A stretch of DNA of 33,824 nt from Candidatus Saccharimonadota bacterium. GTDB taxonomy: Bacteria > Patescibacteriota > Saccharimonadia > Saccharimonadales > EFPC-124. Below the pieces are notes generated by a model that did no database searches, was not told the DNA's origin, and worked only from the letters and a program-made list of their open reading frames with translations. The DNA lies in NCBI GenBank assembly GCA_029288315.1, contig JARIHL010000011.1:1-33824 (forward strand), in the 5' to 3' direction. Positions 3,192-12,415 of this stretch are shown one piece after another. The first letter of the stretch is position 1, and each line of letters opens with the position of its first letter. The position numbers and the translations under genes were made by a program.

Positions 3192-5885
3192 ATGAGACGC
3201 CGTTTAAAGGGCTTGAGCGTTTACGCTAATTTGTCGGCTCGCCGCAAAACCAAGGCTGATGCTAAAAGCCGGCGCAAAGCCGAATATTTGGCTAGTCTGC
3301 CAAAGCAGCCGCTACAAAGACTACTCTATCGCTTGCATCCCAAGCGCATTCTTCGTTATTGGTTCAGTAAAGAAGGCGCGTTAATGGCACTCAAATTAGC
3401 CGGCGTTGCGTTGGTTATTTTTGCCATTTTTATTGGCGCCTTGTTTGCTTATTATCGCCGTGAGCTTGACGCACTGAAACCAAGTGAAATTAGCAAACGC
3501 GTACAAACAACTGTCACCAGATACTATGACCGCAATAACCAGCTACTGTGGGAAGATAAAGGCCTCGATAATTATAAGCTTGTAGTTGAATCTCAAAATA
3601 TTGCCCAGGTTATGAAAGAGGCAACCATTGCTATTGAAGATAAGGATTTTCGCAACCACCCAGGTATTAGCGTGAACGGCATGTTGCGAGCGGCCATCAA
3701 TAATGCTATTGGTAGGGGTAGTACGCAAGGGGCATCTACCTTGACCCAACAACTTATTAAGAACATATTTTTTGCCAATGATGCAGCCGAAAATCGCCTA
3801 AATATTTCGCGCAAGATTAAAGAAATGATCCTTGCCATAGAAGTTGAACGCATGTACAACAAGGATCAAATTTTGACTCTCTACCTCAATGAGGTACCGT
3901 ACGGCGGAAGACGAAATGGCGTAGAATCTGCTGCACGAACCTATTTTGGCAAGCCTGCAAAAGATTTGACGCTTCAGGAAGCGGCTCTGATCGCTTCAAT
4001 TCCACAAAATCCACCACTTTATAATCCCTATTATGTTGAAGGCAATAAAGCACTCATAGAGCGCCAACACGCCGTACTTGACCGCATGGAAGAGCAAGGT
4101 TACATTACAAAACAACAAGCTGACGAAGCGAAGAAATTCCCCATCCTTGATACCCTCAAAGATGAACTGGAAGGCACTGAAGGCATGAAAGCACCGCACT
4201 TTGTGCTAACAGTTCGCCAAGAGCTTGAACGAGAGTTTGGGCAAAAATTTGTACGTACCGGTGGATTAACGGTTAAAACAACCCTTGACTGGCGCATGCA
4301 AGAAATGGCTGAAAAAGCAGTGAACGATAGTTATAATAAATATATTGCCACGGGCCGGGCAAATAATGCCGATAATATCGCCTTCTCTGCTGTAGACGTT
4401 CCCACTGGTCAGATCCTCGCTATGGTTGGCAGTTATGACTTTAACAATAAAGAGTACGGTGCTACGAATGCTGCTACTTCACTTATTCAAACAGGTTCAA
4501 GCATTAAGATATTTGATTACGGTGAACTGTTTAAGCAGCGTCAGGGTCAAAATTATGGCGCAGGCAGTGTGCTTGCCGATGAAGATATTAGCAGCATATA
4601 TAAGAGTAAGCTTTCGAACTTCGATGGCCGGTTCTTTGGTAATATCCCGATACGTGAAGCGCTTGGTAACTCCCGCAACCCACCTGCCGTAAAAGCTGCC
4701 TATATTGCTGGTATCGATAATATCGTCAAATTTGCGCGTGATATGGGTAACCATTCCTACTGCGTCCACGAGGACTATGGTTTATCAGCGGCGATTGGTG
4801 CATGCCGGGCACGACTTATTGAACATACCAATGCCTATGCTTCAATGGCTCGAGGCGGTGTGTATAAGCGAGAATCCTATCTCTTGGAAGTAAAAAATGC
4901 GCAAGGCCAAACCCTGAAACAATGGAAAGATGAATCAAAACGTGTTGTTGACCCACAAATACCTTACATTATCAGCGACATACTGAGCGACCCTAAGGCG
5001 CGCTCTCGAGTCTTCGGCAATAACCCCCTTGGTATGAATATTAATGGTGTTAAAACTGCCACTAAAACTGGCACAACTGACAACGGCCAGGATAAAGCCA
5101 AAGATAACTGGATGATGAGTTATTCGCCCCAAATAGCCACAGGAGTGTGGGTTGGCCGTCATGATGGTGGCCCTTTAACTGGCATATCAACAGCCGTGCC
5201 CGGAAGTATCGTCAATGATTTCATGAGTAGAAGTCATAAAGAAATTCTGCAACCCGAGGGTAAATGGAAGCCAAATGATTGGTTTACACGCCCAGCAGGC
5301 ATCCAGACCGTTACGGCAAATGGCAGAACCGACATCTACCCTTCTTGGTATGTCAAACCGCAGAATGCTGAGGGCCAGAAAATGGCATTCGACCGAGTTT
5401 CGAAGAAAAAGGCTACAAGCTGCACACCTGAGCGCGCTAAAGTTGAAGTAGTCGTACAAACATATGAAGACCCAGTCACCAAGAAAAAAACTTCTTATGG
5501 AGCTGACGGTTACGATGTTAACGCTGACGACGATGCGCACAAATGTGACGACGTAAAACCATTTGCCTCAATTAGCACACAACCACTGGGCGGAGGCAAA
5601 TACCGTATCACCGCTAATGTTAATCAAGGTACCTTTGGCTTACAAACAATTGAGATAAGTGCTGATGGCCAAGTGATCTCAAGTCAGCCAGCAGGTGGAA
5701 CAGGCACCTTCACAGCCGAACATACCTTTACCTCAGTTGGTGATAAAAATGTTTCAGTTACAGTTATTGACCAAGGCTTCTACGATGCAACCGTCACTAA
5801 AACAATTAACGTTTCCTTGAGCCAAAATAATGAAGAAACACTACGCCAACTTATCAATACGCGCCGATCTCGGCAGGGCGGTTAA
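3192..5885 (+). CDS. Class A penicillin-binding protein (transglycosylase/transpeptidase)
   Basis: 897 aa; N-terminal TM; GT51 motifs (AIEDKDFRNHPGI, GASTLTQQLIKN); transpeptidase motifs TGSSIK, SRN, KTGTT. Confidence 0.95.
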   Translation: MRRRLKGLSVYANLSARRKTKADAKSRRKAEYLASLPKQPLQRLLYRLHPKRILRYWFSKEGALMALKLAGVALVIFAIFIGALFAYYRRELDALKPSEISKRVQTTVTRYYDRNNQLLWEDKGLDNYKLVVESQNIAQVMKEATIAIEDKDFRNHPGISVNGMLRAAINNAIGRGSTQGASTLTQQLIKNIFFANDAAENRLNISRKIKEMILAIEVERMYNKDQILTLYLNEVPYGGRRNGVESAARTYFGKPAKDLTLQEAALIASIPQNPPLYNPYYVEGNKALIERQHAVLDRMEEQGYITKQQADEAKKFPILDTLKDELEGTEGMKAPHFVLTVRQELEREFGQKFVRTGGLTVKTTLDWRMQEMAEKAVNDSYNKYIATGRANNADNIAFSAVDVPTGQILAMVGSYDFNNKEYGATNAATSLIQTGSSIKIFDYGELFKQRQGQNYGAGSVLADEDISSIYKSKLSNFDGRFFGNIPIREALGNSRNPPAVKAAYIAGIDNIVKFARDMGNHSYCVHEDYGLSAAIGACRARLIEHTNAYASMARGGVYKRESYLLEVKNAQGQTLKQWKDESKRVVDPQIPYIISDILSDPKARSRVFGNNPLGMNINGVKTATKTGTTDNGQDKAKDNWMMSYSPQIATGVWVGRHDGGPLTGISTAVPGSIVNDFMSRSHKEILQPEGKWKPNDWFTRPAGIQTVTANGRTDIYPSWYVKPQNAEGQKMAFDRVSKKKATSCTPERAKVEVVVQTYEDPVTKKKTSYGADGYDVNADDDAHKCDDVKPFASISTQPLGGGKYRITANVNQGTFGLQTIEISADGQVISSQPAGGTGTFTAEHTFTSVGDKNVSVTVIDQGFYDATVTKTINVSLSQNNEETLRQLINTRRSRQGG

Positions 5886-9648: not shown

Positions 9649-9817
9649 TCAATCCCTTGAGGGCTGCATTGTCCAATTCCTTTTAACACTGGGGTGGCAC
9701 GCGGCGGGGCAGCACCCAAAAAATTTTTTCTGTAATCAGAAAACAATTTTTTAGGGGCGGACCGCGTGACAGGATCCCTTCTATAGGAATTGGACAATGC
9801 AGCCCTCAAGGGATTGA
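9649..9817. repeat. Long intergenic inverted repeat A (33-bp perfect arms, about 103-nt structured loop)
   Basis: TCAATCCCTTGAGGGCTGCATTGTCCAATTCCT (9649-9681) is the exact reverse complement of 9785-9817. Inner stem CACGCGG (9698-9704)/CCGCGTG (9762-9768); apical hairpin 9715-9757 with TAAT loop. Confidence 0.95.
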
Positions 9818-9842
9818 CCCTTTAATACTGGTATGTCATAAT
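9814..9842 (+). promoter_or_regulatory. Candidate promoter TTGACC-17-CATAAT
   Basis: -35 overlaps the distal end of repeat A; precedes the ORF at 9900. Confidence 0.5.
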
Positions 9843-9872
9843 ATAGAAGTTTCAGACAGAACGTTAACATCA

Positions 9873-9899: not shown

Positions 9900-10904
9900 G
9901 TGAGAAAAATCGCATTACTAGCGACCCTATGTTTGTCGATGTTGAGCATATCCACTATGGCATCGGCAGCTGGGCCGCTCGATGACGTGCTTGCCTGCCT
10001 CAAGCAGCAAGCAGTCTGTGTGATGGAAGGAGCTGAAGACGCCACACCCGACACTCCGCGCGAACTCGCCAGTCAGCTCGCGAATGACGACCGGATCGTT
10101 ATCGTTATGCTGCCTGCAAGTAGCGTCGCGAGTATCAATGGTGGCTTATCAGCCGTCGCCCGCAGTTTGGACGAAGCAACCCAACAGCACTATATCATCA
10201 GTTTGTCAGCTGGCGATGAAGCTGTCGGCTATTCGTCTATACTACCCCCTGGAGTTGCGGCTGACCTGATGGAGCGCGCAGTAAGCGTGTCCACCAACAT
10301 GCCAGAAACACACGGTACCTTTGCCAGGAACATTCACAACTGGCAGGAGGTACACCCCGAAGCCACTCCGCCACCGCCAACGTCACCTGATGAGGATGAG
10401 TTTCCAGTCGGAATTCTCTCGATTGGCGTACTTTTCTTTGCTGGTGGAATTGGCTTTATTGTCACACGGCGGCGGCAGCTCGCCCGAGAAAGGAGAGAGC
10501 GCATTCCGCAATTCACTGCACCGCATGCGGTGAAAGAACTGCTGGAAGCGATTATGATGCTGCGGCATCAAATTAATGACACTGCATTTAGCTCTCAGCT
10601 TGAGCAAACGTGCCGTGACACTGATGCCTATTTCATGCGCAACCAGCAGTCAAGACACATTGGCGCTGACATCGAGATGTTCAGTGGGCACTTACAAAGG
10701 GTCCTTGACGTTTTGAGTCAGTACATCGATGTGCAAAACCATCCGCGCTACTACCGTACGCCCACCGCAAGCATGGCACAGGGCCGCACAGCCGTTGAAG
10801 GCTACGCGGCGTTCGTGCTGAGCAACATTCAGCGCGGCGTTGACTTGCGCATGGTTGACTTCACCGTTAATACTGACATACTGTCGACGCAGCGGGGAGT
10901 CTAG
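9900..10904 (+). CDS. Secreted/membrane protein of unknown function (signal peptide, one internal TM)
   Basis: 334 aa from GTG with SD AAGGAGG; MRKIALLATLCLSMLSISTMASAA signal; TM FPVGILSIGVLFFAGGIGFIV. Confidence 0.8.
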   Translation: MRKIALLATLCLSMLSISTMASAAGPLDDVLACLKQQAVCVMEGAEDATPDTPRELASQLANDDRIVIVMLPASSVASINGGLSAVARSLDEATQQHYIISLSAGDEAVGYSSILPPGVAADLMERAVSVSTNMPETHGTFARNIHNWQEVHPEATPPPPTSPDEDEFPVGILSIGVLFFAGGIGFIVTRRRQLARERRERIPQFTAPHAVKELLEAIMMLRHQINDTAFSSQLEQTCRDTDAYFMRNQQSRHIGADIEMFSGHLQRVLDVLSQYIDVQNHPRYYRTPTASMAQGRTAVEGYAAFVLSNIQRGVDLRMVDFTVNTDILSTQRGV

Positions 10905-10920
10905 CTTTCTGTGCGCAATA

Positions 10921-10944
10921 AACGATGGGTATTCGCCCATCGTT
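10921..10944 (+). terminator. Intercistronic hairpin
   Basis: AACGATGGG-TATTCG-CCCATCGTT just after the ORF at 9900-10904. Confidence 0.5.
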
Positions 10945-10969
10945 CCAGTGAGAGAAAGGTACTTCACTG

Positions 10970-11911
10970 ATGAAAATCAGCCGAAGATTCGTAAGGGCCG
11001 GTGTTTTACTAGCCGCTCTGGCCGTAGGTGTCGGCACGACTGTTGGATGCAGCACCACCACTCCGGAAGCGATGTGTGCTTTCGTGGTGGGCGACGGCCA
11101 GGCGGGCAATGATGCCAAGCTGCACCGAGTGGTGCAGCCCGGCGAGAGCATTGGCGAGAGCACTGGTGAGATCGTTCGTTTTGTACCATGCAACTCGCGC
11201 AACTACAAGATCAACGACGGCACCGTGGTCAATGCCAATAAAGAGCAGGTTGGCGACCGTTTCGTGCCAACTCTCGCTTACACCCGGGATGGCACGCCAA
11301 TCTCGATATGGACTGACTCGTACTGGACATTGAACCAGAACGAAGCAATTCTCGAGAAATTCTATGAGCTGTGCTACAAATACAGTTGCTACAGTGAATC
11401 GCGAGAAGGTGGTGCTGCCAACTACTCCACGCCTGGCTGGAATGGTATGCTTGGCGAAAACTTCGGCCCGAACATCGACGATATCGCTATTGAGGCAGCA
11501 AGTCTGATCAGTGACGATATCTGGCGCAACCAGGATGCAGGCCTACGCGATGAACTCGGCGACAAGATGTCCGCGCTCTTTGCGGCAAACATGCGGGAAA
11601 AGTTTGGGTACGCCGAAGATTTCTTCTGTGGTTCCGGCAACTCTGGTTTCAATCCAGACGGCACCTACAACTGCACGCAGGTGCGTGTGGACGTAGTGCG
11701 CGTAGACCGATACGTACCAACGACAGAGGAAGCTGCATCAAATCCTGATGCCCAGGCCCGGCTCAATGCTGAACGTCTGCGGGTCGCTGAAGCGCTCTAC
11801 GGCCCTTCAGCAGGTTACTGGCTGGGTGTACAGGACAGCATCAACGCCTGCCGGAATGCTCAGACACCTTGCCAGATCATGATCGGTCAGGTTCCTGTGC
11901 CGACTGGTTAA
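10970..11911 (+). CDS. Putative lipoprotein of unknown function
   Basis: 313 aa; N-terminal signal and lipobox-like VGTTVGCS; possible SPFH-like C-terminal part (weak impression only). Confidence 0.75.
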   Translation: MKISRRFVRAGVLLAALAVGVGTTVGCSTTTPEAMCAFVVGDGQAGNDAKLHRVVQPGESIGESTGEIVRFVPCNSRNYKINDGTVVNANKEQVGDRFVPTLAYTRDGTPISIWTDSYWTLNQNEAILEKFYELCYKYSCYSESREGGAANYSTPGWNGMLGENFGPNIDDIAIEAASLISDDIWRNQDAGLRDELGDKMSALFAANMREKFGYAEDFFCGSGNSGFNPDGTYNCTQVRVDVVRVDRYVPTTEEAASNPDAQARLNAERLRVAEALYGPSAGYWLGVQDSINACRNAQTPCQIMIGQVPVPTG

Positions 11912-11921
11912 TCTGAAATGA

Positions 11922-12050
11922 TCCTATCGTGCGAATAGGAACTGCTGCGCTGATAAGCGCCGCATCGCACTGGCCGGGATGAGCCACTAATCATCCTTGC
12001 GAGGGCGCCCGTGCCCGTAGCCGATAAAGCTACGGGCACGCGGCTCCTCG
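11922..12050 (+). ncRNA. Chain of predicted RNA hairpins upstream of the hammerhead ribozyme (unknown structured RNA/UTR)
   Basis: HP1 TCCTAT/ATAGGA (11922-11940), HP2 TGC-t-GCGCT/AGCGC-c-GCA (11943-11964), HP3 GGATGA/TCATCC (11977-11996), HP4 CGTGCCCGTAGC/GCTACGGGCACG (12010-12040). Confidence 0.55.
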
Positions 12051-12051
12051 A

Positions 12052-12108
12052 TTGACTCCATAGATGTAAACGAAGCTATGCTGATGAGCCGTAGACGGCG
12101 AAAGTCAA
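12052..12108 (+). ncRNA. Hammerhead ribozyme, type III (stem III open)
   Basis: Stem III UUGAC (12052-12056)/GUCAA (12104-12108); U16.1-H17 = UC (12057-12058); stem I CAUAG (12059-12063)/CUAUG (12076-12080); core CUGAUGA (12081-12087); stem II GCCG-UAGA-CGGC (12088-12099); GAAA (12100-12103). Confidence 0.9.
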
Positions 12109-12190: not shown

Positions 12191-12415
12191 ATGGCCAAGG
12201 GTGACAACGAGATCACTCCCGATGACATTCAGAAACTTACACCTGCAGATATTGAAGGAGACGAAATTCTCTTAAAGGCACTGTTTCGAAAAGTTGCGAG
12301 TGACCCTCAGGCTCTGGAGAAATTACTCACCGAGGCGGTTCGGAGGAATCCAGCGCTCAAGCGACGTCTCATTGGTATCATCCGCAAGAAGAAAAGAAAG
12401 CGTAAGGCTAGGTGA
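12191..12415 (+). CDS. Small protein with strongly basic C-terminal tail (74 aa)
   Basis: Strong SD GAGGAGG; ends RRLIGIIRKKKRKRKAR. Confidence 0.75.
   Translation: MAKGDNEITPDDIQKLTPADIEGDEILLKALFRKVASDPQALEKLLTEAVRRNPALKRRLIGIIRKKKRKRKAR

Follow-up and report, generated by a model that had tools for sequence, protein, structure and literature searches.

The window, by which we mean the whole 33,824-nt stretch of DNA that was analysed, contains a two-gene operon followed by a structured 3′ UTR, a hammerhead ribozyme motif, and a small downstream ORF:

9814–9844, + strand: predicted σ70-type promoter of the two-gene operon (TTGACC, TATGTCATAAT), from its consensus match
9900–10904, + strand: first operon gene, a 334-aa ORF with a GTG start; no Pfam match; 34% identity to a homolog in genome G141
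10970–11911, + strand: second operon gene, a 313-aa predicted lipoprotein; no Pfam match
11929–11970, + strand: 3′ UTR helix GUGCGA (11929–11934)/UCGCAC (11965–11970); GUGUGA/UCACAC in G141, a compensatory change
11976–11997, + strand: 3′ UTR hairpin GGGAUGA-GCCACUAA-UCAUCCU; motif AGCCAYUAA conserved in G141
12000–12049, + strand: long G+C-rich hairpin flush against the ribozyme; a hairpin of different sequence at the same place in G141
12052–12108, + strand: type III hammerhead ribozyme, from base-by-base reading, covariance model, covariation, and core constraint
12191–12415, + strand: 74-aa basic ORF, outside the conserved unit; no homolog beside the G141 copy

The 334-aa product, with a signal peptide and one membrane span recognised by eye, is a predicted membrane protein. 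The lipoprotein gene has a GC3 of 0.61, as compared with about 0.40 in its neighbours. The sequence-only reading had described the region as housekeeping-type, a description that suits the farther neighbours but not the adjoining operon, which is G+C-rich accessory DNA. A PspA/IM30 family gene (PF04012, 8753–9565), divergent from the operon, has an equally raised GC3 (0.60). Just upstream of the operon promoter is a perfect 33-nt inverted repeat (arms 9649–9681 and 9785–9817) enclosing about 100 bp that recur in more than 20 places in the genome at 75–98% identity; 9649–9817 is thus a repeat element within a hairpin, the outer arms of which are mostly not common to the other copies.

Base-by-base reading reveals how the hammerhead is built. 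Stem III is formed by UUGAC plus U16.1 (12052–12057) and A15.1 plus GUCAA (12103–12108); stem I by CAUAG (12059–12063) and CUAUG (12076–12080), with a 12-nt loop I (12064–12075); and stem II by GCCG (12088–12091) and CGGC (12096–12099), with loop II UAGA. The core strands are CUGAUGA (12081–12087) and GAAA (12100–12103), C17 is at 12058, and the predicted cleavage site lies between C12058 and C12059. The two strands of stem III enclose stems I and II and leave the open end at stem III, giving the type III topology. The copy has the hammerhead core CUGANGA…GAAA with U16.1 and H17, and compensatory change supports its three helices. The core nucleotides, stems, and coordinates of the sequence-only reading are all correct, and its type III assignment is supported.

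A search with the Rfam hammerhead models, which that reading had proposed as a check, gave no significant match: nothing on the window copy at the gathering threshold, no useful match at either threshold tried, and an RF00008 alignment of 13.3 bits against a cut-off of 48.5, the cut-off being an annotation convenience that stands outside the definition of a hammerhead ribozyme. An isolated 61-mer folds as a hammerhead, with a stability that is ordinary relative to shuffles (z = −0.9). Because the Rfam scores are sub-threshold and the fold is not more stable than shuffled sequences, a claim made from this single sequence would have had the match as its only support, and we turned to comparison.

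Scanning the source assembly (1.2 Mb, 89 contigs) for the pattern CTGATGA…GAAA identified four further places with stem II hairpins, each of which is a complete type III hammerhead. The five copies share a common core and have different stems, with two-sided compensatory change in 11 of 15 pairs. A covariance model built from these five copies (R1) added a sixth own-genome copy, on contig C45, bringing the total for this Saccharimonadia ('Saccharibacteria') genome to six, and two copies in another genus of the same family. As a safeguard against circularity, a second model (R2) was built from 70 sequences of other genomes, none of them from the source genome. With R2, the score of the window copy is 58.7 bits (E = 7.9e-14 for a search space of 86 kb, Infernal E-values being rough), and all other own-genome copies are recovered as well; with a lineage model scoring so high, the RF00008 miss is probably due to the limit that the Rfam model sets on stem and loop lengths. 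Across the 70 aligned sequences, pairing is kept in 98.2% of pair cells, and two-sided compensatory cells number 320, versus 89 in shuffles; the sequences had been collected with R1, which biases the alignment towards the hammerhead fold, and slid controls show the real register standing out. Given the R2 match and the covariation, the window motif is more than chance: by sequence comparison the element at 12052–12108 is a genuine hammerhead motif, with cleavage predicted.

At the level of the order, 93 of 393 genomes contain R1 matches; the counts are 80 of 296 for the class and 36 of 384 for a sample of the phylum (mostly metagenome assemblies, the genome groups being samples rather than a census). 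The richest genome, G141, has 19 copies. In a pattern scan of named genomes, 11 of 14 matches are Saccharibacteria or Saccharimonadia records, which identifies the lineage as Saccharimonadia, within the Patescibacteria; a Spirochaetia MAG also gave matches, on two very short contigs that are taken as misbinned. Collections of viral, phage, and plasmid sequences gave no match to the ribozyme, and the association with phage genes or viral contigs was not found. The copy had been called unusual and away from phage: the second point stands, whereas the copy is not isolated, being one of six in its genome and a member of a lineage-wide family.

Selection for catalysis is visible in the sequences of the 103 copies compared. 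Position 7, the only free core position, varies in 22 copies, while C3, G5, A6, G8, A9, G12, A13, and A14 have variants in 0–4 copies each. Position 17 is C in 78 copies, A in 14, U in 11, and G in none. R1, having been trained on C17 and U7 only, had no reason to rank G below A or U there, and the chance of finding no G in the 25 non-C cases is about (2/3)^25 = 4e-5 if the three bases are equally likely and independent. The pattern of core variation is the mark expected of working ribozymes, short of proof of activity. Certain loop types also tend to occur together: a loop I that ends in AG is mostly combined with a loop II starting with U (in the window, AUGUAAACGAAG/UAGA), and loop I AUGNGUAU occurs mostly with loop II AAAA or GAAA, co-occurrences that are only suggestive of tertiary contact.

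The surroundings of the copies tie the ribozyme to the gene upstream. The window lipoprotein has a single homolog among 385 genomes of the order, in G141, which belongs to another family (45% identity), and this sole homolog carries a hammerhead; the refuting outcome named in the sequence-only reading, a lack of the motif in relatives with the flanking genes, was thus not seen when checked for the upstream gene. The order at the G141 locus (334-aa gene, lipoprotein gene, structured 3′ UTR, hammerhead) is that of the window, and the window's downstream genes are missing there. Because operon, structured UTR, and ribozyme are kept together, the ribozyme belongs to the 3′ UTR of the operon. Its distance from the stop codon at 11911, 140 nt, is within the same-strand range of about 50–170 nt for the family. 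Specifically, a same-strand ORF ends upstream of 73 of 75 copies, at a median of 99 nt from the ribozyme; across the 103 copies, with gene starts as called by a simple ORF caller, the nearest upstream gene is on the same strand in 86 and is not in 17, while the nearest downstream gene is on the same strand in 51 and on the opposite strand in 48. Many downstream genes converge on the ribozyme, as rpoC does in contig C6. Promoter-like sites directly follow the ribozyme in 26 of 74 units (versus 7–11), and intrinsic terminators follow it in 10 of 74. As the ribozyme is tied to the upstream gene, and as operon and ribozyme recur without the downstream ORF, it most likely makes an mRNA 3′ end. The defined 3′ end that the sequence-only reading had predicted for the lipoprotein RNA is thereby supported, in position and conservation, and would extend to the family at large (86/103; G141).

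Roughly half of the units can form a helix of 10–17 bp between the 5′ leader and the segment immediately preceding the ribozyme, with sequences that differ between units. In particular, UGACAAGCAGACA in the leader and UGUCUGCUUGUCA, whose end lies 2–3 nt before the ribozyme, are reverse complements; other matching leader/3′ pairs are GAUAGGUGUUUGU/ACAAACACCUAUC, UGACAAUCCGUUC/GAACGGAUUGUCA, and GGCAGAUUUUGAAACA/UGUUUCAAAAUCUGCC, and GACAAACGGUAAUAGA/UCUAUUAUCGUUUGUU on contig C12 of the source genome. RNAduplex proved too permissive for this pairing, and a strict ungapped test was used instead. Searching 2.6 kb upstream, a range that reaches the neighbouring unit in a few arrays, it finds the helix in 53 of 103 units, as compared with 3 when the 3′ segment is reversed; at a stricter score the numbers are 41 and 0. 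When 3′ ends are swapped between units, 2.1 helices are expected, as compared with 36 observed among 93. The 36 helices fall into 16 clusters of 3′-end sequence and include G–U pairs, for which reason an RNA helix fits better than transposon ends; transposon-like terminal repeats were considered as the main reading and set aside, in view of these G–U pairs and of the variation in the sequence pair among units. The leader-strand pattern by itself is at chance level in the source genome. The window unit has no significant 5′–3′ helix (p = 0.31) and has the local hairpin before the ribozyme instead; the only leader pairing it has, GAGGAaGCC/GGCUCCUC, is bulged and covers the ribosome-binding site. 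In the commonest type, the 3′ strand can, as judged by eye, also pair with a nearby upstream strand through several G–U pairs, making a switch between local and long-range pairing of the 3′ strand possible. At least one unit in G245 (L071 17040–17560) has leader UGACAACUCGUUC and matching GAACGAGUUGUCA after the gene, with no ribozyme behind; as this unit keeps the 5′–3′ helix, the ribozyme is not indispensable.

We assign a probability of roughly two in three to the reading that the hammerhead, located in the 3′ UTR of the operon, cuts co-transcriptionally to give the mRNA a fixed 3′ end, a role it would have family-wide for accessory genes. The identity of the motif, the selection acting on it, its tie to the upstream gene, and the 5′–3′ complementarity are drawn from comparative genomics; we infer intracellular cleavage, the nature of the ends (established hammerhead chemistry), and protection. 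In the window, the ribozyme would fold during transcription of the operon at 9900–11911, cut after C12058, and release the RNA beyond; the 3′ end would then be fixed a few bases beyond a strong hairpin and would bear a 2′,3′-cyclic phosphate. The family would form 3′ ends in the same way for numerous accessory genes in Saccharimonadia and, sparsely, elsewhere in the Patescibacteria, and in about half of its members the cut would yield an mRNA with its 5′ and 3′ ends kept paired by the 10–17 bp helix. The probable purpose would be 3′-end formation without a terminator, together with protection of the message from exonucleases. Because terminators are few and the next promoter-like sites close, the ribozyme may stand in for termination; and a cyclic-phosphate end beside a helix should resist those exonucleases that require a free 3′-OH.

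The most serious alternative, to which we give somewhat less than even odds, is that promoter, leader, cargo, hairpin, and ribozyme are transferred together as a mobile cassette, the role of the ribozyme being to insulate or mobilise this DNA unit and not to serve the cargo. Most of the 73 proteins encoded upstream are unrelated to one another and unassigned to a family; exceptions include glycosyltransferases, a NUDIX protein, and two proteins that match the Thoeris inhibitor Tad4. Yet both the leader preceding the gene and the segment that precedes the ribozyme are about 80–90% identical across genera, the leader comprising a promoter-like sequence, a conserved UUGAG…CUCC motif able to form a hairpin, and, in many copies, UGACAAGCAGACA, the strand that pairs with the 3′ end. 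One whole unit is the difference between two species of one genus at the same locus: G245 has an extra unit relative to G324, beginning right behind one ribozyme and ending at the following promoter, in a tandem arrangement. The window operon itself is found in only 2 of 385 genomes of the order, in different families. Cargo GC3 lies 12–26 points above that of neighbouring genes in nine genomes, and in three genomes UUA accounts for 1% of leucine codons in cargo versus 20%; because the GC3 of the window rplS is only 0.32, this codon bias is unlike the usual bias of highly expressed genes. Against mobility, the complementary ends are not constant across units, as the ends of a transposon recognised by a single enzyme would be; no recombinase was noticed beside the units, and the phage, plasmid, and viral collections gave no match. 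Integron cassettes are single orphan genes with a structured element after each stop, in variable arrays; the units resemble them in the orphan genes and the structured post-stop element, and differ in carrying their own promoter and leader, with no attC site or integrase noticed. A mobile cassette and 3′-end formation are compatible, both can be true, and our confidences in them overlap.

Several further observations concern the units. Relative to synonymous shuffles, the coding regions of the cargo have slightly more structure (z −1.40 vs −0.74, p = 0.012), a weak effect. L062 3093–3827 and L071 16093–16812 are homologous cargo in two species, and the two matches to Tad4, a type I Thoeris inhibitor, are probably these homologues, an anti-defence cargo. 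Long inverted repeats or hairpins lie directly upstream of the promoters of other units (L076 520–640; L078 about 4030–4080; L062 about 2910–2950) and are perhaps insulating terminators. A 79-nt stretch, 90–100% identical between two species (L062 5391–5469 and 7921–7999; L071 17797–17875), adjoins the unit array; as the L071 copy coincides with a tRNA-like sequence, these stretches are probably tRNA genes. Beside the C6 copy, a resemblance by eye to a tRNA end was rejected: ARAGORN finds no tRNA there, and the resemblance is explained by the 5′–3′ helix motif.

Three other readings are improbable, to different degrees. The geometry of helix plus ribozyme would suit a circular message, in which the ends, brought into line by the helix, are sealed by a ligase acting between the cyclic phosphate and the 5′ terminus. 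RtcB is a ligase for such RNA ends; it is absent from the source genome and from 14 of 14 ribozyme-rich relatives, whereas the same search is positive in 9 of 14 control genomes, making circularisation by RtcB unlikely, and no second ribozyme that would make a 5′-OH was noticed. Equally speculative is an end-sealed class of mRNA, combining hammerhead and 5′–3′ helix on mobile units, whose messages would be stored or passed to, and read in, an actinobacterial host, as the cargo codons (almost no UUA, high GC3, unlike the organism's own ribosomal-protein gene) and the anti-defence cargo might suggest. Less likely still is that the cut serves mainly to generate the 5′ terminus of the downstream gene's transcript, the 5′-OH mRNA that the sequence-only reading had proposed for the 12191 ORF. 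That ORF is on the same strand and, as correctly counted there, 83 nt downstream, but the orientation of downstream genes across the family is random (51:48) and often convergent, promoter-like sites follow the ribozyme, and the ORF is not kept in G141. A chance or decayed look-alike, to which the sub-threshold Rfam scores might point, is rejected at the level of sequence by the independent-model E = 8e-14, the covariation, and the core constraint.

Type III hammerheads of RF00008 (plant satellite RNAs, viroids, some bacterial intergenic regions) have the same core, three stems, open stem III, and NUH triplet; the window copy differs in having a short stem II and short loops, in scoring below the Rfam threshold, and in its position in a chromosomal 3′ UTR of accessory genes. 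Bacterial hammerheads are largely phage-linked and occur in clusters near small, non-conserved ORFs of unknown function, with cleavage shown for such clusters and a purpose that is not settled (Perreault et al. 2011, PMC3088659; PMC6155905); circular or spliced products were sought and none found (Perreault et al. 2011, PMC3088659). The Saccharimonadia set is similar to the clustered bacterial and prophage hammerheads (PMC3088659; PMC6155905) in that several lie close together beside small non-conserved ORFs. Unlike the phage-linked clusters, it has no viral match, sits about 99 nt after the stop codon, is spread through Patescibacteria, and has a conserved leader and 5′–3′ complementarity. 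Theta (HDV-like) ribozymes of gut phages are also small ribozymes tied to RNA processing in prokaryotic DNA, and differ in being of another class, linked to tRNA rather than mRNA, and in phage rather than the chromosome (PMC10879173). If mobile, the units would resemble retrozymes (PMC4918200) as mobile DNA with hammerheads; they differ in their protein-coding cargo, in the absence of paired circle-releasing ribozymes, and in that no long terminal repeats were noticed.

A literature search, whose scope left out most subscription journals and bioRxiv, found nothing on hammerheads in Saccharibacteria or Patescibacteria, or on self-cleaving ribozymes in the candidate phyla radiation. Provisionally, then, the ribozyme class is known, and its placement, the paired ends, and the spread through the phylum appear to be new. 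The purpose of bacterial hammerheads has been an open question since their discovery, and the family described here provides a large chromosomal set with a fixed position at mRNA 3′ ends, a matching 5′ element, and long-range complementarity. Some members of the Saccharimonadia can be grown together with their hosts. A set of this kind makes the role directly testable by 3′-end sequencing and, if the reading is true, self-cleavage would be added as a route to bacterial mRNA 3′ ends.
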